Program-made: the position numbers and the translations under genes
Assembly (NCBI GenBank): GCA_946186375.1
Contig: CAMHMZ010000020.1
Span: 1-42,985, forward strand
Length of the DNA stretch: 42,985 bases
From: an uncultured Clostridia bacterium
Lineage (GTDB): Bacteria > Bacillota > Clostridia > Oscillospirales > Oscillospiraceae
Reading direction: 5' to 3'
Notes under the pieces: generated by a model
Seen by the model: the letters and a program-made list of their open reading frames with translations, nothing else
What the model was told of the DNA's origin: nothing
Databases searched by the model: none
Shown here: one piece after another, positions 5,142 to 42,315 of the stretch
How the letters are laid out: each line of letters starts with the position of its first letter
Numbering within the stretch: position 1 is the first letter of the stretch

Positions 5142-5364
5142 TTTTCAGAGGGGTAAACGGAAGTTTAGCGAGGAATTCGGAATTCGGAATGCGGAATTCG
5201 GAATACAGGGAAGACGAGGGATAGAACGAGGAAATTGACGTCCACGCCGTAGGGGCGGCTACCAGCCGCCCGCCAACTCTGTACCATGTCCGCGGGCGGC
5301 TGATAGCCGCCCCTACGACATCATTTCAAACTCCTCGCTAAACTCCGGTTTTCCTTTCTGAAAA
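5142..5364. repeat. Intergenic palindromic repeat, copy A
   Basis: The outer arms start TTTTCAG and end CTGAAAA. Inside the left arm are GTTTAGCGAGGAATT and a run of GGAATTC-type units; inside the right arm, read in reverse, are GTTTAGCGAGGAG and TTTGAAATGATGTCGTAGG. The core is a near-perfect inverted pair, GTAGGGGCGGCTACCAGCC against GGCTGATAGCCGCCCCTAC. Close relatives are at 8366, 14340, 31922 and 40791. No gene or promoter is seen inside. It fills most of the 446-base hexokinase-LRR gap. Confidence 0.85.
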
Positions 5365-5448
5365 CCAAAAACCAAATCTCCCGTTTCGCTTTGCTCCGGA
5401 TCCCGAACTCCGCCTTCCAAATTATATTGCTTTTCTCCCGCCCGGGTA

Positions 5449-8365: not shown

Positions 8366-8737
8366 AGTTTTCAGTTTTCAGAAAGAGAAACGGATGTTTA
8401 TCGCTGAGTTTGAAATGATGTCGTAGGGGCTGCCGCCCTCGGCAGCCCGGCAAAACAATCCGAAAACATACGGAAATCCCCGGCGAATTCGTAGAATGTT
8501 ACATTTTTGCCTTGGATTTGTTCAACTCTTTCGCCTGTACTGCACGGGCCGCCGAGGCGTCGGCCCCTACGACATGGACGTCATTTTTCGCGTTTTATTC
8601 CCCGTTCCCTTTCATTCCTCTCTCCTAACTCCTAATTCCTCATTGCTTTCAAACTCCAATTTATCGGTCTCCTAAAAACTTAAAACTTAAAACTAAAAAC
8701 TCTTTCGTCGTCCCTGAAAACTGACTTCTGAAAACTA
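8366..8737. repeat. Intergenic palindromic repeat, copy B (inverted orientation)
   Basis: It begins AGTTTTCAGTTTTCAG and continues GTTTATCGCTGAGTTTGAAA then TGATGTCGTAGGGGC, matching the right arm of copy A read backwards. The core holds ATCCCCGGCGAATTCGTAG, seen as half of a hairpin in copy G, and closes with GGCCCCTACGAC read forward as CGTCGGCCCCTACGAC. The far arm has lost the GGAATTC units and shows CCTAACTCCTAATTCC instead. It fills the space between two convergent genes; nothing else was seen in it. Confidence 0.82.
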
Positions 8738-8742
8738 AAGCA

Positions 8743-9336
8743 TCACCAGTACTTCTCCGGGTGGGCGCTGGAGCAGAAGTACATGACGCCCCATTCCTCA
8801 TCGCAGTAGCGCGCGTAGTCGCGGCTGCCAAGGGAGCAGCGGCTCTGACACACGACCCAGGGCGAGAGCCGCCGCTCGCCGCGCAGCAGGGCCAGCGCGG
8901 CGTTGACGCTCTCGCTGTCCGGGTCGAAGAGCGTGCGGAAGTCCTCGCTGTCCACGCCCGCGTAGACGCCCTCCTGAAACACGACCTCCTCGAGCGTATC
9001 GGGGTACTCCGGGGAGGCGACGCGGTTGAGCGCGACCTCGCCGATGCACATGCGCCAGTCAAGGCCGATCCGGTCGCTGTTGGCCACCCAGGCGATGAGC
9101 TTTGCGAGCAGCAGCAGCTCGTCAAAGTCGATGCGCGCGTCGAGCGAGTCGCGCGCGTCCAGCGCCTCGTTGCGGCAGATCGCCGCGGCGCGCCCGGCGT
9201 CATAGTCGCCGCATTCGGCCGCCTGCAGCATGATCGCCAGCCACTCCTGCGGCGAGCGCAGCTCCTCCTCGGCCGAGGCGCGGACAGGGGAGAGCAAAAG
9301 CAGCACGGCCAGGAGACAGGGAAGCAGTTTTTTCAT
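8743..9336 (-). CDS. Secreted SleB-like cell wall hydrolase, catalytic residue apparently lost
   Basis: The 197-residue protein has a signal peptide (MKKLLPCLLAVLLLLSPVRASA). Residues about 73-125 (LLLLAKLIAWVANSDRIG, then IGEVALNRVASPEYPDTLEEVV) align with the SleB/CwlJ lytic transglycosylase core, LLARxVYxEARGE...VAxVxLNRVxxPxFPxTxxxVI. The catalytic glutamate of the EARGE motif is replaced: the equivalent stretch reads WVANSD. The NRV and FP..T landmarks remain. It could be a non-catalytic peptidoglycan-binding relative. The stop is 6 bases from the edge of repeat copy B. The alignment is by eye. Confidence 0.65.
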   Translation of the reverse strand: MKKLLPCLLAVLLLLSPVRASAEEELRSPQEWLAIMLQAAECGDYDAGRAAAICRNEALDARDSLDARIDFDELLLLAKLIAWVANSDRIGLDWRMCIGEVALNRVASPEYPDTLEEVVFQEGVYAGVDSEDFRTLFDPDSESVNAALALLRGERRLSPWVVCQSRCSLGSRDYARYCDEEWGVMYFCSSAHPEKYW

Positions 9337-9454
9337 GGGGTTTCCGCCTTTCGCTTATGTTTGCCCCAGTATAAGCCCCCGGAAATGGGGAATGCTGTCG
9401 CAACGCGCCGGGAAATCCGGAAAATCAAGAGAGCGGGAAAAGCGCGGAAAGCGA

Positions 9455-9483
9455 TTGCGTCTGACGGCGTTTCGTGCTATAAT
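9455..9483 (+). promoter_or_regulatory. Promoter of mfd, predicting a leaderless mRNA
   Basis: TTGCGT (9455-9460), 17-bp spacer, TATAAT (9478-9483). Only nine bases separate the -10 box from the ATG at 9493, so transcription should start 0-4 bases before the start codon. No Shine-Dalgarno sequence is present. Confidence 0.72.
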
Positions 9484-9492
9484 CTCCGGCGT

Positions 9493-12400
9493 ATGAAGAT
9501 CCTTGCCAGAGAATTTTTTGCCAATAAGGAAGCTGCCGCCCTCCCGGGTCTGCTGGAGAGCGGAGGGCTTCCTGCGCTCGTTTCCGGGCTTTCGGCGGTA
9601 CACCGGGCTCATCTTGGCGCCGCGCTCCGCGTTTCCACGGAACGCCCGCTTTTCGTCATCAGCCCCGACGACACCGCCGCGGAGAGCCTTGCGGCCGATC
9701 TGCGCGCCCTTCTGGGCGAGGAGGTCGTCACCCTCGGGCTGCGCGACTTCCTGTTTTATCCGGCCGAGGCCGTGTCCCGCCAGGCCGAGCAGCGCCGTCT
9801 CGCCGCACTCTACGCCCTGCAGAGCGGGCGCGCGCAGCTCGCGGTGGCCTCGGTGTCAGGCCTGCTGCAGCGCACGATGCCGCCCGAGACGCTTGATAGC
9901 GCGGCCTTCACGCTCACCGACGGGACGGAGTGCTCCATCCTCGACGCGGAGGACGCGCTGCTGCGCTGCGGCTACGTGCGCGCCGACCAGGTGGAGGGCC
10001 CGGGGCAGTTTGCCCGCCGCGGCGGCATCCTCGACTTTTTCTCTCCGGCAGACCCCGAGCCGGTGCGCGTGGAGTTCTGGGGCGACGAGATCGACTCCAT
10101 GGGCCATTTCGACGTATCGACCCAGCGGCGCACGGAGCCGCTGGAGCGCTGTGTCATCCTGCCTGCGGCCGAGGCGCTGCCCGCGCTGACGGCCGGGGGC
10201 GCGGCCGCGCTGGGGCGGGAGATCGCCGCCTTTGCCGAGCGCTACGCCAAACGCCGCACGAGCGAGAACGCCGTCAAGCTCAGCCAGGCGCTGCGCTCCG
10301 ACGCCGACCGGCTCCTCAATGCGGGCTCGCTGCCGGAGGCCGACCGCTACCTGCCGATGCTCTATCCGATGGCCAGCGCCGCCGACTATATCCCGCCGGA
10401 CGCCGTGGTGCTGCTCGACCAGCCCGGCCGCTGCGCCGAGCGGGCGCGGGACTACGCCAAACAGCTCGGCGAGGACGTGCGCGAGCTCAACCGCAGGGGC
10501 CTTGCCGCCATGTCGCCGGACGGCTTTCTGCTGGGGTTTGACGAGCTGGTGCGTAAGCTCGGCGACTACCCGCTCTATATGGCCGACGCCTTCACTGTGG
10601 GCCGCGGGCCGATCGCCCCGCGCACGCTCACGAGCGTCCCGGCCAAGCAGCTGCCGAGCTACGCGGGCAGCGCGCAGACGGCCGCGGAGGACGTGCGGCT
10701 CTATCTCAGGCAGGACTACCGCGTGCTGGTGCTGGCCGGGGACGAGCGCCGCGCGGGCGTGCTGAAGGAGTTTTTTGAAAATAACGGCATCCCCGCCGCG
10801 CTGCAGACCGAGCTCAGCGCCCTGCCCGAGCCGGGCCGCTGCCTCATCAGCGTCGGCGCCGTGTCCGCGGGCATGGAGTACCCCGGCATGCGCCTGGCCG
10901 TGCTGACCGACGCGCAGCTGCTGCGCCGCTCGGAGAAGAAGCGGACGCGCCGCGCGCTCCCAGCGGGGCGGCAGCGGATCGAAAGCTATGCTGACCTCTC
11001 CGTCGGCGACTACGTCGTGCATGAAAACCACGGCATCGGCCGCTTTGCCGGCATCGTCAAGATGCAGGTGGACGGTCTGGAGAAGGACTATGTCAAGATC
11101 TGCTACGCGGGCACGGACAGCCTCTATGTGCCGGCCACGCAGCTCGATCTTGTGACCAAATACACCGGCGGCGGCGAGGACAAGGCCGTGCGCCTGTCGA
11201 AAATGGGCGGCGCCGAATGGGCGCGCACCCGCTCACGGGCCAAGAGCGCGGCCAAAGACATGGCCAAAAAGCTCATCGCCCTCTACGCTGAGCGCCAGCG
11301 CCTGCCCGGCCACGCCTTCGCACCGGACAGCGAGTGGCAGCGCGAGTTCGAGGACAACTTCGGCTACACGGAGACGGACGACCAGCTCCGCTGCGCGGCG
11401 GAGATCAAGCGCGACATGGAGTCGAGCGTGCCGATGGACCGGCTCCTCTGCGGTGACGTCGGCTTCGGCAAGACCGAGGTCGCGCTGCGCGCGGTGATGA
11501 AATGCGTGCTCGACGGCAAGCAGGCCGCGATCCTCGTGCCGACGACGGTCCTGGCCCAGCAGCACTATCAGACGGCGCTGCAGCGCTTTTTCGGCTTCCC
11601 CGTGACGGTGGAGGTGCTCAGCCGCTTCAAGACCGGCGGACAGTCCGCGCAGGTGATCGGAGACCTCGCCAGCGGCAAGTGCGACCTCGTGATCGGCACG
11701 CACCGGCTTTTGAGCAAGGACGTGAAGTTCAAAAACCTCGGGCTTCTGGTCGTGGACGAGGAGCAGCGCTTCGGCGTGACGCACAAGGAGCATATCAAGG
11801 AGCTCTCGCGCGGCGTCGACGTGCTCACGCTCTCGGCCACGCCCATCCCGCGCACGATGAACATGGCCATGTCCGGCATCCGCGACATGTCCACCATCGA
11901 GGAGCCGCCGGAGGACCGCCTGCCGGTGCAGACCTTCGTCATGGAGCATGACTGGGGCGTTCTGGCCGACGCCATCCGGCGCGAGCTGCAGCGCGGCGGG
12001 CAGGTCTACTATCTGCACAACCGCGTCGAGGACATCGAGCGCACCGCACGAAAGCTCTCCGATTTGCTCGAGGGCGTCAGCATCGGCGTGGCGCACGGCC
12101 AGATGGACAAGCGCATGCTCGCCTCCGTCATGGAAAACGTCGCCAACGGCTCGGTGCAGGTGCTCGTGTGCACCACGATCATCGAGACCGGCATCGACAT
12201 TCCCAACGTCAACACCCTCATCATCGAGGACGCCGACAGGCTGGGACTGGCGCAGCTGCACCAGATCCGCGGCCGCGTCGGCCGCTCCACGCGCCGGGCC
12301 TCGGCCTATCTGACCTTCCGGCGCGACAAGGTGCTCACAGAGATCGCCGAGAAGCGGCTCAACGCCATCCGGGACTTCGCCGCCTTCGGCTCGGGCTTCA

Positions 12401-13002
12401 AGATCGCCATGCGCGACCTCGAGATCCGCGGCGCGGGCAATCTCCTCGGCGCGGAGCAGTCCGGCCACATGGTGGACGTGGGCTACGACATGTACATGAA
12501 GCTCCTCAGCGAGGCGGTGCTCGAGGCGCGCGGCGTCGAGGTGCCGCAGCGGGCGGAATGCTCGGCGGATCTGGCGGTCGCGGCCAACATCCCCGACCGC
12601 TATGTCCCCTCCGCCGAGCAGCGCATGGATATCTACCGCCGCATCGCCCTCATCCGCAGCGAGGAGGAGGCCGACGACCTGACGGACGAATTGATCGACC
12701 GCTTCGGCGACCCGCCCCCGGGCGTCAACGCGCTCATCCACGTGGCGCTGCTGCGCGGCGAGGCGGGGAAGGCGGGCATCACCGATATCTCCCAGAAGTC
12801 CGGCGCGCTGCGCTTTATCGTGAAGGATTTCGACATGGAAAAGGTCTCGCGCCTGTACGCCACCCAGGAATACAAGGGGCGGCTGCGCGTCGAGGCCGGG
12901 AGCAAGCCCTGCCTGAGCCTGAAGATCCGCGCCAAGGGCCGCGTGATCGAGGAGGCGCGGCGCTTCGTGCGCGACTGGGCCGAGGATGGAAAGAATGTGT
13001 AA
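9493..13002 (+). CDS. mfd: Transcription-repair coupling factor Mfd
   Basis: This ATP-dependent translocase removes stalled RNA polymerase at DNA lesions and recruits UvrA. The 1169-residue length is typical. The N-terminal UvrB-like region (about 1-350) contains PGQFARRGGILDFFSP; the RNA polymerase-interacting CarD-like domain starts near 502 (SVGDYVVHENHGIGRF); Walker A is CGDVGFGKTEVA near 651; DEEQRFG lies near 752; helicase motif VI is QIRGRVGR; a C-terminal TRCF domain follows. The open frame runs back to 8761, antisense through the SleB-like gene, but the promoter and protein family place the start at the ATG at 9493. The parvulin gene follows at once, an order common in clostridia. 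Confidence 0.96.
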   Translation: MKILAREFFANKEAAALPGLLESGGLPALVSGLSAVHRAHLGAALRVSTERPLFVISPDDTAAESLAADLRALLGEEVVTLGLRDFLFYPAEAVSRQAEQRRLAALYALQSGRAQLAVASVSGLLQRTMPPETLDSAAFTLTDGTECSILDAEDALLRCGYVRADQVEGPGQFARRGGILDFFSPADPEPVRVEFWGDEIDSMGHFDVSTQRRTEPLERCVILPAAEALPALTAGGAAALGREIAAFAERYAKRRTSENAVKLSQALRSDADRLLNAGSLPEADRYLPMLYPMASAADYIPPDAVVLLDQPGRCAERARDYAKQLGEDVRELNRRGLAAMSPDGFLLGFDELVRKLGDYPLYMADAFTVGRGPIAPRTLTSVPAKQLPSYAGSAQTAAEDVRLYLRQDYRVLVLAGDERRAGVLKEFFENNGIPAALQTELSALPEPGRCLISVGAVSAGMEYPGMRLAVLTDAQLLRRSEKKRTRRALPAGRQRIESYADLSVGDYVVHENHGIGRFAGIVKMQVDGLEKDYVKICYAGTDSLYVPATQLDLVTKYTGGGEDKAVRLSKMGGAEWARTRSRAKSAAKDMAKKLIALYAERQRLPGHAFAPDSEWQREFEDNFGYTETDDQLRCAAEIKRDMESSVPMDRLLCGDVGFGKTEVALRAVMKCVLDGKQAAILVPTTVLAQQHYQTALQRFFGFPVTVEVLSRFKTGGQSAQVIGDLASGKCDLVIGTHRLLSKDVKFKNLGLLVVDEEQRFGVTHKEHIKELSRGVDVLTLSATPIPRTMNMAMSGIRDMSTIEEPPEDRLPVQTFVMEHDWGVLADAIRRELQRGGQVYYLHNRVEDIERTARKLSDLLEGVSIGVAHGQMDKRMLASVMENVANGSVQVLVCTTIIETGIDIPNVNTLIIEDADRLGLAQLHQIRGRVGRSTRRASAYLTFRRDKVLTEIAEKRLNAIRDFAAFGSGFKIAMRDLEIRGAGNLLGAEQSGHMVDVGYDMYMKLLSEAVLEARGVEVPQRAECSADLAVAANIPDRYVPSAEQRMDIYRRIALIRSEEEADDLTDELIDRFGDPPPGVNALIHVALLRGEAGKAGITDISQKSGALRFIVKDFDMEKVSRLYATQEYKGRLRVEAGSKPCLSLKIRAKGRVIEEARRFVRDWAEDGKNV

Positions 13003-13019
13003 ACATGCCCGGCGGGGGC

Positions 13020-13047
13020 TTGCAAAAGTCCGCGGGCGTGGTATGAT
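13020..13047 (+). promoter_or_regulatory. Promoter of the parvulin gene
   Basis: TTGCAA (13020-13025), 16-bp spacer, TATGAT (13042-13047), followed by AAAGGAG 12 bases before the start codon. Confidence 0.6.
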
Positions 13048-13079
13048 GGAACATAACCAATCAAAGGAGAAACAGAAGC

Positions 13080-14321
13080 ATGAAAAAACTGTTCGCTCTA
13101 CTCCTGGCCGTCCTGCTGGTCTTCACCGGCGCGGTCAGCTATTTCCTGCAGAGAGACAAGTCCGTCCCGGCGGACGAGCCCGAGACGCCCGCCCCTGTCG
13201 AACAGGCGGCGGAGGCGGAGACTGAGGCCGGGGCTGAGGACATCAGCATCACGTATCAGCGCCTTGACCTGGACGCGCTCTACGCCCTGCATGAGCCGGA
13301 CGAGATCGTCGCCACGGTCCGCGGGCGCGACGTCACCTGGGACGAGTATTTCTACTGGCTCGCGGCCGGGTCCGCCTCGGTGGAAAACTACATGGTGCAG
13401 ATGGCCATCTACGGCGGCGGCGTCAGCTGGGAAGACCCCTGGGGCGACGATCCGGACGAGGACTTTTTTGGCTACGTGCTCAACAGCGCGGAGGAGAACA
13501 TCAAGCCCTTCCTCGCCATTGAAGCGCTCGCAAGTGAAAACGGCGTGACGCTCAACGAGGAGGAGCAGGCCCAGGTGGCCGAGCGTATGGCCTCCTACCG
13601 TGCCGAGTCCGTGGGCGAGGACGCCAGCGACGAGGAGTTCGTCGCCTATCTGCGCGAGACCGAGCGCATGAGCCTTTCCACGCTCGAGCGGCTGATGACG
13701 GACTCCGCGCTTTACCAGGCCTGCTTCCGCGAGCTCTACGGCAAGGACGGCGAGAAGCTCAGCGACGAGGAGGTCATGGCGTATCTGGCCGAGCAGGGCT
13801 ACCTGCGCGCCAACCACATCCTGCGTCTGACGAAGGACATGGACACCGGCGAGGATCTGGACGAGGCGACGGTCGCCGAGAAGCAGGCCGAGGCCGCGGC
13901 CATCGCCGCGCAGCTGCAGGCCATCGAGGATCCCGAGGAGCTGCTCAAAAAGCTGCAGGAGCTCAAAACGGAGTGGGACGAGGACAGCGGCAAGGAGGCC
14001 TATCCCGACGGCTATGTGTTCGTCGAGGGGCAGATGGTGGACGAGTTTTACGAGGGCACGAAGGCGCTGGAGGAGTACCGCGTCTCCGACCCCGTGCAGT
14101 CGGAATACGGCTATCATGTCATTGTGCGCCTGCCGCTCGATCCGGACACGGTCCTCGGCACGAGCGCGGAGGGCACGCCTCTGACGGCGCGCGCCAGCTG
14201 CGCCAACGCCCGCTACGGCGAGCTGCTGGACGAGCGCCTGGCGGAGACGGCGTTTGTCTACGCCCCGGGCTTTGAAAAGCCGGAGCTCTCCGCCTTCCTG
14301 ATCGAGGACACCCTCGGCTGA
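13080..14321 (+). CDS. Membrane-anchored parvulin-type peptidylprolyl isomerase (PrsA/SurA-like)
   Basis: The 413-residue extracytoplasmic protein is predicted to assist folding of secreted proteins. It has an N-terminal hydrophobic segment (about 3-23) with no lipobox cysteine, so it is either anchored or cleaved by signal peptidase I. A linker rich in E, P and A leads to a SurA_N-like helical region (EIVATVRGRDVTWDEYFYWL onward, about 75-240). A rotamase domain follows: RANHILRLTKD near 241, then YPDGYVFVEGQMVDEF and SEYGYHVIVRL near 345. The rotamase domain is interrupted by a helical insertion (EKQAEAAAIAAQLQAIEDPEELL), as is usual in the family. It lies downstream of mfd with its own promoter. 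Confidence 0.85.
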   Translation: MKKLFALLLAVLLVFTGAVSYFLQRDKSVPADEPETPAPVEQAAEAETEAGAEDISITYQRLDLDALYALHEPDEIVATVRGRDVTWDEYFYWLAAGSASVENYMVQMAIYGGGVSWEDPWGDDPDEDFFGYVLNSAEENIKPFLAIEALASENGVTLNEEEQAQVAERMASYRAESVGEDASDEEFVAYLRETERMSLSTLERLMTDSALYQACFRELYGKDGEKLSDEEVMAYLAEQGYLRANHILRLTKDMDTGEDLDEATVAEKQAEAAAIAAQLQAIEDPEELLKKLQELKTEWDEDSGKEAYPDGYVFVEGQMVDEFYEGTKALEEYRVSDPVQSEYGYHVIVRLPLDPDTVLGTSAEGTPLTARASCANARYGELLDERLAETAFVYAPGFEKPELSAFLIEDTLG

Positions 14322-14339: not shown

Positions 14340-14603
14340 TAGTTTTCAGTTTTCAGAATTCAGTTTTCAGGAGTATTCGGAAGGAAGAAAACGAAGGATT
14401 AACGCGAAAACTGGCGTCTGCGCCGTAGGGGGCGATGCCTTCATCGCCCCGCGCGGTACGATCAGAAAAAGAAACAGATCCCCGGCGAAAACGTGTCATG
14501 GTACGAATTCGCCGGGGATTATTGCACGATTTTCAAGCTTCTCCTGCCGGGCTGTCGGGGACGCCGGCCCCTGCGACAGGACTTCATACTCCTAGGTAAA
14601 CGC
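14340..14603. repeat. Intergenic palindromic repeat, copy C
   Basis: It begins TAGTTTTCAGTTTTCAG, then AAAACGAAGGATTAACGCGA and GCGCCGTAGGGGGCGATGCC, matching the left arm of copies F and G without the GGAATTC run. The core holds a hairpin of ATCCCCGGCGAA and TTCGCCGGGGAT (about 14482-14520). The right arm, GGCCCCTGCGACAGGACTTC then CTAGGTAAACG, is a diverged form of the common arm. No obvious terminator for the parvulin gene lies upstream. Confidence 0.78.
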
Positions 14604-19579: not shown

Positions 19580-19628
19580 AGTTTTCAGAAGTCAGTTTTC
19601 AGTTTTCAGAGAAGAAGACGAAAACTGA
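19580..19628. repeat. Short relative of the intergenic repeat arms, copy D
   Basis: AGTTTTCAGAAGTCAGTTTTCAGTTTTCAG-type units followed by GAAGACGAAAACTGA. It has neither the GTAGGGGC core nor the longer arms. It lies between the convergent pfkB and amylase terminators; the rest of 19629-19738 holds nothing recognised. Confidence 0.6.
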
Positions 19629-22595: not shown

Positions 22596-22622
22596 GTCAG
22601 TTTTCAGAATTCGTTTTTCAGA
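22596..22622. repeat. Short relative of the intergenic repeat arms
   Basis: GTCAGTTTTCAGAATTCG followed by TTTTTCAGAT directly after the stop of the 22080 gene. No core is present. Confidence 0.5.
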
Positions 22623-24619: not shown

Positions 24620-24703
24620 CCAGTTTTCAGTTTTAAGTTTTTAGTTTTTAGAAACAGTCGACAGAGCGCCTCTGAAAACTTAAAACTACAAACTAAAAAC
24701 CTG
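24620..24703. repeat. AT-rich palindromic repeat relative, copy E
   Basis: CAGTTTTCAGTTTTAAGT and TTTTAGTTTTTAG on the left pair with CTGAAAACTTAAAAC and AAACTAAAAACCTG on the right. Only the outer AT-rich arms of the repeat family are present, without a GTAGGGGC core. It sits between the GH53 stop and its terminator. Confidence 0.72.
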
Positions 24704-31921: not shown

Positions 31922-32192
31922 CAGTTTTTAGTTTTAAGTTTTTAGTTTTTAGGAGCGCGACAAATCAGAGTTTAGCGAAAAATTCGGAATGCGGAGTTCG
32001 GAATTCGGAATGAAGGGAAACGAAGGATAGAGCGAGGAAATTGACGTTCGCGTTGTAGGGGCGGCTATCAGCCGCCCGTCAAACCAGTACCGTGTCCGCG
32101 GGCGGCTGATAGCCGCCCCTACGGCATCATTTCAAACTCAGCGATAAACTGCCGTTTCTCTTTCTGAAAACTATAAACTATGAACTAAAAAC
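31922..32192. repeat. Intergenic palindromic repeat, copy F
   Basis: It runs from CAGTTTTTAGTTTTAAG to AACTAAAAACTCA. The left arm has GAGTTTAGCGAAAAATTCGG, GGAATTC units and AAACGAAGGATAGAGCGAGG; the core is TGTAGGGGCGGCTATCAGCC against GGCTGATAGCCGCCCCTACG; the right arm read in reverse is GCAGTTTATCGCTGAGTTTG then AAATGATGCCGTAGGGG. It is the closest relative of copy A. It occupies the 327-base convergent gap after malQ; no other feature was seen. Confidence 0.87.
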
Positions 32193-32432
32193 TCAATGCC
32201 TCAGGGGCAGCCACCAGGTGAAGCCGAAGGCGAGGCACTGGACGGCGCCCTCCGCGGCGCTGAGGCCTTTCTCCTCGGCGGTGCGGCGGCCGATGAGCAC
32301 ATACTCCGCCGCGTGCATGCCAAACAGCACCAGCAGCGGCAGGGGCTTCTTTTTGGCGCAGAGCCACGCGAAGGCCGCGTACAGCGCCACGCAGATCGGT
32401 TTTCCGAAGGCTTTGGTCAGCTTGAGAAACAT
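32193..32432 (-). CDS. Small membrane protein of unknown function
   Basis: The 79-residue protein has two or three hydrophobic segments (about 10-24, 30-46 and near 62-76) joined by a charged loop (GRRTAEEKGLSAAEG). No family is recognised. A near-perfect AAGGAGG lies 8 bases before the ATG, which supports it as a real gene. It follows the desulfhydrase by 40 bases on the same strand. Its stop codon (TGA) touches the AGTTTTTAG edge of repeat copy F. Confidence 0.68.
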   Translation of the reverse strand: MFLKLTKAFGKPICVALYAAFAWLCAKKKPLPLLVLFGMHAAEYVLIGRRTAEEKGLSAAEGAVQCLAFGFTWWLPLRH

Positions 32433-40331: not shown

Positions 40332-40799
40332 ATGGGCTATATTGAAGAGCTGCGCGCGCTCGTGGGGCACCGGCGGCTGAACCTCTGCGGCGCGTCGGTC
40401 GTCGTGCAGAACGAAAAAGGGGAGCTGCTGCTGCAGCAGCGGCGCGAGCCGGAGGGACGCTGGTGCTTTCCCGGCGGGCTTATGGAGCTGGGCGAGGCAC
40501 TGGAGGACACGGCCCGGCGCGAGGTCTTTGAGGAGACGGCGCTGCACCTGGGCGAGCTGAGGCTCATCGGCGTCTATTCCGGGCCGGAGCAGCTCTGCCG
40601 GGCGGCAAACGGCGACGAGTGGTATGTGGTCAACGCCGCTTACGCCTGCAGCGACTATGAGGGCCGGGCGCAGGTCAACGACGGGGAGTCTCAGCGCCTC
40701 GGCTGGTTCAAGCCGGAGGACCTGCCCGAAAACCTCGCCGCCTCGCACCGCCGGATCCTCGCTGACTATCTGAGGCTTACTGAAGAAAAGAGTTTTTAG
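40332..40799 (+). CDS. Nudix hydrolase
   Basis: The 155-residue cytoplasmic hydrolase carries the Nudix box GGLMELGEALEDTARREVFEETAL near residues 49-72: the REVFEE metal-binding core is intact and the glycine usually after EET is alanine. The substrate (a nucleoside diphosphate derivative) cannot be told. The final codons AGT TTT TAG are part of the AGTTTTTAG unit that opens repeat copy G, so the native C terminus may have been changed by insertion of the repeat. Confidence 0.9.
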   Translation: MGYIEELRALVGHRRLNLCGASVVVQNEKGELLLQQRREPEGRWCFPGGLMELGEALEDTARREVFEETALHLGELRLIGVYSGPEQLCRAANGDEWYVVNAAYACSDYEGRAQVNDGESQRLGWFKPEDLPENLAASHRRILADYLRLTEEKSF

Positions 40800-41225
40800 T
40801 TTTAAGTTTTTAGTTTTTAGGAGAACGACAAATTTGAGTTTAGCGACGAATTCGGAATTCGGAATTCGGAATGAAGAGAAACGAAGGATAGAGCGAGAAA
40901 ATCGGCGTCTACGCCGTAGGGGCTGGCGCCCTCGACAGCCCGCGCGGTACGGGCGGAAAAGATGAATTAATCCCCGGCGAAAGCGTACCATTCTACGAAT
41001 TCGCCGGGGATTTTTGTATATATTTGAGGTGCTTCTGCCGGGCCGTCGGGGACGCCGGCCCCTACGAAAAGAGGCCGCGCCCCCCGTAGGGACGAGCATT
41101 GCTCGTCCGCCGAGCCTGCACCGTGTCCGCGCTCGCTCGTGAAGCGCCCCTACGACATCATTTCAAACTTCTCGCTAAACAACCGTTTACCATTCTAAAA
41201 ACTAAAAACTGAAAACTGAAAACTA
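40791..41225. repeat. Intergenic palindromic repeat, copy G (composite of two cores)
   Basis: The outer arms match copies A and F (GAGTTTAGCGACGAATTCGG on the left; GCGAGAAGTTTGAAATGATG read in reverse on the right). Between them lie two cores: first GCCGTAGGGGCTGGCGCC to GCCGGCCCCTACG (about 40914-41068), containing the hairpin ATCCCCGGCGAA / TTCGCCGGGGAT as in copy C; second CCGTAGGGACGAGC to GAAGCGCCCCTACG (about 41084-41153). It fills the whole 423-base convergent gap and includes the stop codons of both flanking genes. Confidence 0.87.
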
Positions 41226-41792: not shown

Positions 41793-41842
41793 ATGCTGCT
41801 CCTTCCGGCCGCTGAGCGGCCTCTTGTATTTTGGTCGCTCTT

Positions 41843-41896
41843 ATGATAGCATGGTCACATCAAAAGAACAAGTACTGGCATATTTAACAGGTACTT
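41843..41896 (-). promoter_or_regulatory. Flavin reductase promoter and probable HxlR operator
   Basis: On the minus strand TTGTTC (41871-41866), 17-bp spacer, TATCAT (41848-41843). An inverted repeat AAGTAC...GTACTT (41870-41875 and 41891-41896, 15-bp centre) overlaps the -35 box and lies just before the HxlR ribosome binding site, suiting control of both genes by the HxlR protein. Confidence 0.7.
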
Positions 41897-41910
41897 ACCG
41901 GGAGGAAAGT

Positions 41911-42249
41911 ATGAACGACAAAAACATCGAGCAGGCCCGCTTTCAGGACACGGGCTACAGCTACACGCTCTCGCTCATCAGCGGCAAATACAAACCCGTC
42001 ATTCTCTATTGTCTGATGGAGTACGAGCCGGTGCGCTTCAAGCAGATGCAGCGCTATCTCGGCAAGGTGGCGGACAAGACGCTCAGCGCAAACCTCCGCG
42101 AGCTGGAGCGGGACGGGCTCATCCTGCGGCACATGTACCCGGAGATCCCGCCGCGCGTGGAGTACAGCCTCACCGAGCGCGGCCATTCTCTCGTCGAAGT
42201 ACTCGACAAGCTCTGCGACTGGGGCCTGACCAACCGCCCGCGCCCGTAG
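41911..42249 (+). CDS. HxlR family winged-helix transcriptional regulator
   Basis: The 112-residue regulator has the HxlR plan: TLSLISGKYKPVILYCLMEYEPVRFKQMQRYLGKVADKTLSANLRELERDGLILRHMY, with the wing PPRVEYSLTERGHSL. The usual N-terminal redox cysteine of YodB/HypR-like members is not in the expected position (the N terminus is MNDKNIEQARFQDTGYSY), so it may sense something other than thiol stress. GGAGG sits 5 bases before the ATG at 41911; an upstream in-frame ATG at 41824 has no such site. The TAG stop forms the edge of a repeat (TAGTTTTCAG). Confidence 0.9.
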   Translation: MNDKNIEQARFQDTGYSYTLSLISGKYKPVILYCLMEYEPVRFKQMQRYLGKVADKTLSANLRELERDGLILRHMYPEIPPRVEYSLTERGHSLVEVLDKLCDWGLTNRPRP

Positions 42250-42315
42250 TTTTCAGAAGTCAGTTTTCAGTTTTCAGGAGAGAGAGATAAACTCCCGTTT
42301 ACTTCTCTGAAAACT
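42247..42315. repeat. Minimal palindromic repeat relative, copy H
   Basis: TAGTTTTCAGAAGTCAG and CAGTTTTCAGGAG on the left, GAGATAAACTCCCGTTTACT at the centre and TCTCTGAAAACTCA on the right. Only the arms are present, meeting at GTAAACGGGAG read in reverse. The rest of the 42316-42458 gap is AT-rich with nothing recognised. Confidence 0.65.

Follow-up and report, generated by a model that had tools for sequence, protein, structure and literature searches.

The window analysed here is a stretch of 42,985 nucleotides that makes up the whole of contig C20 of an uncultured Clostridia genome (G000; 3.29 Mb assembled, 83.9% complete). An earlier note on this DNA had described five long copies of an intergenic palindromic repeat together with short relatives, and rereading the window located them at about the positions claimed. 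The best-preserved long copy (31923-32193, forward strand) is a composite that reads, from left to right, shell, arm B, REP dimer, arm A and shell. Its left 30-nt heptad block (AGTTTTTAGTTTTAAGTTTTTAGTTTTTAG; 31923-31952, forward strand) is mirrored on the right by an inverted block (32164-32193, reverse strand). Arm B, made of the heptads GGAATTC and GGAATGC, occupies 31981-32011 on the forward strand, and arm A, which includes CATTTCAAACTCAGCGATAAAC, lies beyond the core at 32123-32149 on the same strand. The core, CGTAGGGGC, consists of a REP formed by GTAG and the hairpin GGGCGGCTATCAGCCGCCC (REP 1; 32055-32077, forward strand) and of its reverse complement (REP 2; 32100-32122, reverse strand), the two lying head-to-head over 68 nt end to end.

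The AT-rich outer run that had been listed among the shared parts of the repeat is indeed present, but it is really a block of 7-nt units that is short, degenerate or missing in some copies. Among the five long copies, only those at 31923-32193 and 40791-41224 carry it complete on both sides. The composite at 5142-5377 (forward strand) has degenerate blocks at both ends and contains a GGAATTC array (5172-5204) and a REP dimer (5249-5316). At 8366-8737 the composite is inverted (reverse strand), with arm A at the left, a long REP dimer with an inner hairpin (8423-8570), a left block shortened to two motifs and two heptad blocks on the right. The copy at 14340-14603 (forward strand) is one-sided, its right block being absent, and its REP GTAGGGGGCGATGCCTTCATCGCCCC starts at 14425, whereas the composite at 40791-41225 (forward strand) holds two nested REP dimers (40916-41065 and 41086-41153). 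In the long cores the hairpin ATCCCCGGCGAA...TTCGCCGGGGAT sits between one REP and the other and adds another layer to the nest (8477-8500, where it is imperfect, 14478-14524 and 40970-41016). The short relatives, all on the forward strand, include two shells without nested REPs, one at 24622-24701 with about 20 nt and nothing nested inside, and one at 42248-42315 that supplies the TAG stop of the open reading frame at 41824-42249. There are also two single blocks, one of 30 nt directly after a terminator-like hairpin (19580-19609) and one that is degenerate (22596-22621). The end of the contig (42739-42985) carries an 18-nt tandem repeat that recurs, with variation, with a period of 72.

The repeat is not confined to the window. 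A search of the whole genome with the copy at 31923-32193 as query found at least 114 matching places at E ≤ 0.001 (overlapping and partial matches included; 40 of 194 candidates scored), and a pattern for the shell matched 151 times, its reversed control not once. In a collection of named genomes, from which the window's own genome was perhaps left out, one form of the shell block occurred in only two assemblies, an uncultured Oscillospiraceae bacterium from sheep and a Ruminococcaceae bacterium (RUG12356). The strong self-complementarity described earlier was borne out: folded as DNA, the query copy reached -66 kcal/mol, whereas its shuffles averaged -34 kcal/mol (z -9.3), and none of 200 shuffles did as well. 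The patterns for gaps, heptads and pairs were written after the first copies had been seen. The shell proper is a pair of inverted blocks of 7-nt units (AGTTTTCAG...), mostly 30 nt long; at 86 distinct ends in the genome, the block measured 30 nt in 56, 16 nt in 11 and 23 nt in 10, and was longer or irregular in nine. GAGA follows 20 of the 53 distinct full-pattern blocks and, as we read it, is similar to the ribosome-binding leader seen in the relatives' gene-carrying copies.

The comparison with REP families, already drawn in the earlier note, is right for the core, which consists of two head-to-head, GTAG-tagged REP hairpins. Copies are numerous, dispersed, extragenic and often head-to-head, and 46 distinct dimers were read in the genome; besides the 68-nt form these measure 69-92 nt or 148-150 nt, the latter with a further hairpin between the REPs. 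Eight of the 46 are 92 nt long (L014, L017, L022, L026, L027, L125, L128 and L138), and the first five of these, which were read, have a 24-nt insert, GACGCGAAGCTAGTCCTTTAGGGC, in the second REP. In a 438-kb sample made up of the window and 20 further stretches of the genome, searched on both strands, GTAG was the commonest tetramer before perfect hairpins that start with G (44 of 455), followed by AAAA (41), which we read as a mark of terminators. The base before GTAG was a pyrimidine in all 35 congener cases and all 50 own cases read, and GTAGGGR motifs fell outside predicted genes 73 times and inside them 29 times. The main REP type, GTAGGGGCGGCTANCAGCCGCCC, has 89 exact copies in the genome (reversed control, 0) and is found in 36 of 102 genomes of the genus, the window's own counted, with a single copy in G004, the closest relative by the searches of this analysis. 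A second type, GTAGGGGCGACCCTTGNGGTCGCCC, is absent from the window's genome and present in 26 of the 102.

The transposase-like genes that were found accompany the core. The model for REP-associated tyrosine transposases (RAYTs) matched in 67 of the 102 genus genomes, in seven of them above the curated cut-off, and at three places in the window's genome. The RAYT on contig C19 holds a matched inverted REP pair within its reading frame and that on C60 is bordered by REPs; near-identical versions of both stems, with one base different or missing, lie in the window. Among the RAYTs of this genome, whose assembly is 84% complete, none was found to carry the main REP stem of the window. That stem does lie inside RAYT reading frames of three congeners (G046, a third one, and G006, in which the stem of one of the two REPs is a variant), REP GGCTATCAGCC lies within the RAYT gene of a congener, and relatives carry the window's REP type without the shell, RAYT genes included. 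Judged by the GTAG foot, the dimers and the in-frame REPs rather than by a tree, these RAYTs probably belong to TnpAREP subclass 2.4. RAYT genes (L099, L103-L105, L107, L119, L144, L172 and L181) have an inverted REP pair in frame at two sites, of which one precedes the HuH motif and the other follows it; the two REPs of a pair are alike within a gene, and stems and even reading frames differ between genes. A 254-aa RAYT-like Y1 gene on contig C84 (L002/L145) was also considered as a mover of the GTAG REPs and was rejected because its immediate flanks are GGGACAGGGGAC repeats and not GTAG; a GTAG dimer is present on that contig at a distance of about 4 kb. The gene is bordered by GGGACAGGGGACGGTTCCCTGTCCC repeats, whose GGGGACAG part fits GGGGWSAS, a motif given for TIRYT elements in PMC3733652.

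The statement in the earlier note that arms are conserved and cores vary captures a genuine difference between the centres of the copies, but what it describes is a nest of separable families and not one family. Within 260 nt of the 46 REP dimers, a heptad motif was found on at least one side in 42 and on both sides in 24, many of these loci having been fetched by a shell-containing query. The arms at the 46 were A and B in 21, A and C in three and B and C in two, never two alike, with 20 not assignable; the core kept one orientation relative to arms A and B in 19 of 20 scorable A-B dimers. This nearly fixed order and orientation fits a composite amplified as a unit. Arm C is a palindrome, TCATTCTGAGGAGCG...GAAGAATC, that replaces an arm beside the REP dimer (L024, L028-L031). 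Among 17 paired shells in the 438-kb sample, 14 contain REP motifs and three do not. Across the 102 genus genomes, 15 carry both the shell and the REP type, 10 the shell only and 21 the REP only, a distribution (p 0.004) that shows the two not to be statistically independent. Congener loci fetched for the REP had a heptad motif in one of 30 cases, and none of the 12 paired elements read in other genomes contained a REP, so nesting was seen only in the window's own genome.

Several lines of evidence connect the shell with a small gene. At one congener locus (L205) a complete four-helix-bundle gene lies between the paired blocks, and a search for this family found such genes in 45 of the 102 genus genomes, with six in the window's own. 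One of the six, on contig C15 between dgt and dnaG (L261), sits in an element of 426 nt, gene included, that ends in AGTTTTCAGTTTTCAGAATTCAGTTTTCAG and, inverted, AGTTTTCAGAAGTCAGTTTTCAGTTTTCAG. The first end recurs without mismatch in the window as the left block of the one-sided copy (14341-14370, forward strand), and the second at 19580, as the single 30-nt block, and at 42248, as the left block of the REP-less shell; the remaining blocks in the window are variants. The encoded protein matches TIGR02436 (four-helix-bundle/S23; E 2.2e-35) and is related to the structures PDB 2gsc (XCC0516; E 2e-22) and 2rld. The earlier note had suggested looking for a full-length copy with a transposase; the gene-carrying copy encodes a four-helix-bundle/S23 protein rather than a recognised transposase. 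An IS200-like gene on contig C59, tried as a source of the shell, was rejected, as arrays with at least two heptad motifs are absent from its stretch (L146).

The repeat itself carries no gene: tblastn at E ≤ 1 found no remnant of the four-helix-bundle gene in the window or in 54 further loci of the genome, and for this reason we call the shell a gene-less derivative and not a member of the gene-carrying family. Four of the six own-genome genes are without heptad arrays on both sides, one of these four having an upstream array only. The GGAATTC heptads of the window's inner arm stand on both sides of genes of a second subfamily in G004, G023 and G030; in G062 a single side has them. Upstream of some genes of this subfamily (SGTSIGANI; L262-L264, L270, L272, L276 and L277) lie arrays of small hairpins whose units resemble TGATGT, TGATATT or TGAATTG. 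In the dgt-dnaG gap, among the best 30 of 94 genomes with a match and with classes assigned by eye, the gene element was found in 10, heptads without the gene in two (G021 and G026), a REP dimer of the window's type in one (G078) and none of these in 17, G004 included; one gap has therefore received both families separately.

These observations bear on an alternative in which the repeat is an ordinary GTAG REP or REPIN family and its AT-rich heptad flanks are hitchhiking target DNA. Its core does correspond to a REP, the genome has RAYT genes with GTAG REPs inside or beside them, and REP dimers inserted in longer palindromes are on record (PMC3733652). Nevertheless, shells occur without REPs both in the window and elsewhere, this REP type is missing from 10 of 25 shell-bearing genomes, and the shell has end blocks of its own, two of them identical to those of the gene-carrying element; we therefore consider this alternative unlikely.

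Heptad arrays also accompany such genes beyond this genome. In a high-scoring subfamily, inspection by eye showed 7-nt arrays flanking the gene left and right at 16 loci, their sequence being species-specific and the left array matching the right; a first reading covered 16 of 30 loci, and the 14 that the gene motif had missed were examined afterwards. A strict detector of period 7 was then applied within 260 nt of PF05635 genes. In the genus (50 of the 79 matches listed) it found arrays upstream of 23, downstream of 26, on both sides of 16 and on either side of 33, compared with one of 58 control stretches. In other families of the phylum (28 of 29 new loci, L295 being left out for a stop codon) the figures were 11 upstream, 10 downstream, six on both sides and 15 on either, with 3 of 56 controls, and for 18 plasmid and viral loci nine, six and five on both, with 3 of 35 controls. 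No array on either side was found by this setting at 17 of the 50 genus loci and 13 of the 28 phylum loci. The plasmid set comprised 14 of 32 matching records and the viral set four of nine loci, the other five sharing the match figures of a kept one (82-100% identical by position); when these five were tested afterwards, two had an upstream array and none had both. The heptad idea came from the same data, although the sets from other families of the phylum, from plasmids and from viruses, as well as the TAGTG pattern described below, were examined once it had been formed.

Other periods and other genes rarely showed such arrays. Periods of 5, 6, 8, 9 and 10 gave zero or one case each and period 11 gave 2, 1 and 1 in the phylum set. 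Of the control genes, malQ had arrays on neither side at 27 loci, another block had two of 28 on the left and none on the right, and RAYT one of 24 on the left and none on the right. At loci with both arrays, an inverted match between the two was found in 26 of 27, compared with 28 of 702 cross-locus pairs, and a direct match in three of 27. Outside the phylum, both-sided strict matches came from five cyanobacterial plasmid copies (Anabaena, Nostoc, Calothrix, Geminocystis and Pseudanabaena); an Azospirillum plasmid copy has 7-nt arrays on both sides at a looser setting, the arrays on either side of a Gemmatirosa plasmid copy (L312) have units of 8 nt and none of 7 nt, and a Riemerella copy had no array by the strict setting. 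On two cyanobacterial plasmids of different genera (L310 and L318), the gene and its arrays lie between cas6 and cas4 of a CRISPR operon.

Shells of the AGTTTTNAG form were present in 13 of 16 genus genomes with the high-scoring gene and in 12 of 86 without it (Fisher p 2e-7, shared ancestry ignored), and a PF05635 match was absent from seven of the 25 shell-bearing genomes, whose assemblies are incomplete. A second heptad type, TAGTG, was found in 12 of 102 genomes, overlapping matches being counted separately. Five of the 12 have the high-scoring gene with TAGTG-type heptads on at least one side, among them G039 (49 matches) and G036 (13); TAGTG arrays without a gene match occur in G047 (18) and G084 (7), and the matches in the window's own genome are all in the array of the high-scoring gene itself. 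Slippage offers another account, by which heptanucleotide repeats expand locally, do not move and lie near four-helix-bundle genes by accident. The tandem 7-nt units and the long arrays beside some genes (L318 and L266) would suit it, yet it would have to accommodate the 30-nt blocks at 56 of 86 ends, the matching of the two arrays as inverted copies at 26 of 27 loci, the rarity of such arrays beside other genes and at other periods, and the precise absence of the repeat from an orthologous gap described next, and we give it only a slim chance.

That gap provides one clean two-sided empty site, which supports the view of the repeat as dispersed and as having moved. Both flanks of one own-genome copy (L028) align to a single stretch of G004. 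In that stretch the stop codon upstream and the start codon that follows overlap; in the window's genome the shell starts with the T of this stop codon, and about 31 further bases past its right block are likewise absent from G004. The test covered 32 shells against 193 kb of G004 and a few further loci, with a flank found for seven shell rows (two of them one site) and both flanks for one. At malQ and at both ends of the block 8742-14308, G004 is also without the shell, but one flank only is orthologous. The same gaps in relatives hold other intergenic palindromes, of the TCATTGCGAGGAGGG... and GGGGAGGTGGC... types (L034 on G004:C27, and the dgt-dnaG gaps of G034, G047 and G084; L352, L350 and L341).

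Movement of the kind known for a MITE in the usual sense is not supported, since target duplications of at least 3 nt are absent from all 31 paired shells (two show a 2-nt duplication), whereas shuffled pairs gave a mean of 1.2 with at least 3 nt. Inverted ends are nonetheless present, and descent from a DDE transposon, as a MITE whose terminal inverted repeats measure 30 nt, would explain these ends, the small size, the dispersal and the empty site; against it stand the missing duplications and the gene found between such ends, which encodes a four-helix-bundle protein, and we judge this origin very improbable. Movement of the IS200/IS605 type is not known to leave a target duplication.

All 20 elements whose position was classified lie between or beside protein-coding frames, in tandem gaps (10), convergent gaps (seven), a divergent gap (one) or at sequence ends (two), and none of them sits in a 23S rRNA helix; the baseline of gaps of at least 40 nt was 106 tandem, 48 convergent and 43 divergent. 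At 16 of the 86 block ends the block supplies the stop codon of a long upstream frame, as TAG in 12 (with the block's first two bases) and TGA in four. The repeat might instead be a regulatory RNA or 3'-end stabiliser that is kept for its function and does not move. This proposal draws on the strong folding, on the 16 shared stop codons and on the location after stop codons and terminators, divergent gaps making up one of 18 classified against 43 of 197 in the baseline. It fits poorly with the tested gaps being unoccupied in the closest relative and with the neighbouring genes read in the window being mutually unrelated, and appears to us a remote prospect.

The reading that best accommodates the anatomy of the copies, their matching end blocks, the separability of shell and core, the empty site, the lack of target duplications and the heptads beside four-helix-bundle genes is that the long copies derive from four-helix-bundle elements, lack the gene and enclose nested REP dimers, a reading to which we assign a probability of roughly 0.7. 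The shell would descend from a small element in which a four-helix-bundle/S23 gene lies between inverted 7-nt tandem arrays. The two arrays are predicted to pair with each other in RNA or single-stranded DNA, and the paired stem may let RNase III excise the element from the transcript on the model of 23S rRNA intervening sequences; an intergenic insertion would then do little harm. New copies would land at or just after stop codons or terminators and leave no target duplication. The four-helix-bundle protein may help the shell to move; no catalytic activity of it is on record in the literature passages available, so the DNA may be cut by a different enzyme, perhaps one supplied in trans. The nested head-to-head GTAG dimer would belong to a different family, thought to be moved by RAYT (TnpAREP group 4/subclass 2.4), and the composite, its arm order nearly fixed, would then have multiplied as a unit in this genome. 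The nest would accordingly consist of two unrelated small mobile families stacked on each other, and the stacking would explain conserved arms and variable cores without a single shuffling mechanism.

Similar repeats flank four-helix-bundle genes in other bacteria, cyanobacteria included, and a broader proposal can be made, which we regard as evenly balanced between right and wrong. A widespread class of mobile elements would consist of a four-helix-bundle/S23 gene between inverted 7-nt (once 8-nt) arrays, sited at operon stop codons, with arrays whose two sides change in concert. The 23S rRNA intervening sequences would represent a single instance of this class, and many of the heptanucleotide repeats found between bacterial genes would be copies of it without the gene, serving here as frames for landing or carrying REP dimers. 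Neither the intergenic heptanucleotide repeats nor the four-helix-bundle/S23 genes, common as both are, have an explanation, and the link gives the former a candidate source element and the latter a candidate role.

How do these elements compare with known systems? According to Di Nocera 2013 (PMC3733652) and Quentin 2018 (PMC6006769), the GTAG REPs and REPINs of RAYT group 4, equivalent to TnpAREP subclass 2.4, have GTAG at the foot of a G-C-based hairpin, form head-to-head dimers and reach high copy numbers, as here, and the REPs in frame within and beside the RAYT genes described above agree with this group as well. REPs within subclass 2.4 genes are indeed already known (PMC6006769); the insertions reported there generally fall between HuH and Y, whereas one of the two in-frame sites found here precedes HuH. 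In contrast to known GTAG REPs and REPINs, the dimers of this genome sit in a second repeat family. The GTAG-15 dimers of A. variabilis likewise occupy the centre of a longer palindrome, but according to PMC3733652 no such palindrome was found without a REP, while here there are REP-less shells and a gene-carrying relative.

The protein also matches, weakly, Avd, the accessory protein of diversity-generating retroelements (NF033474; E 1.3e-6, 28.7 bits against a cut-off of 80). Among heptanucleotide repeats, the TAACTGA heptamers of Beggiatoaceae, Cyanobacteria and Bacteroidetes are also intergenic, 7 nt long and patchy across phyla (PMC4679880); unlike the arrays described here, they are described as direct repeats, and in one genome most of them directly precede a start codon. 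Searching the text of that paper for terms returned no mention of four-helix-bundle proteins, S23 or 23S rRNA intervening sequences.

A general link between the four-helix-bundle gene and inverted heptad arrays appears to be new; in the open literature, as far as its accessible text goes, only PMC4990558 comes near, with heptamers beside an S23 gene. That work describes an intervening sequence with tandem GACAGAT heptamers ahead of the S23 open reading frame and with variable copy number between strains. The 23S rRNA intervening sequences with this reading frame resemble the elements studied here in being short and in having inverted ends around a four-helix-bundle/S23 gene, and they have long been suspected of mobility (PMC4990558). 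The present elements differ in that they lie between protein genes, have inverted heptads on both sides and are accompanied by dispersed gene-less copies, and the suspected mobility of the intervening sequences thereby becomes testable at ordinary chromosomal sites.
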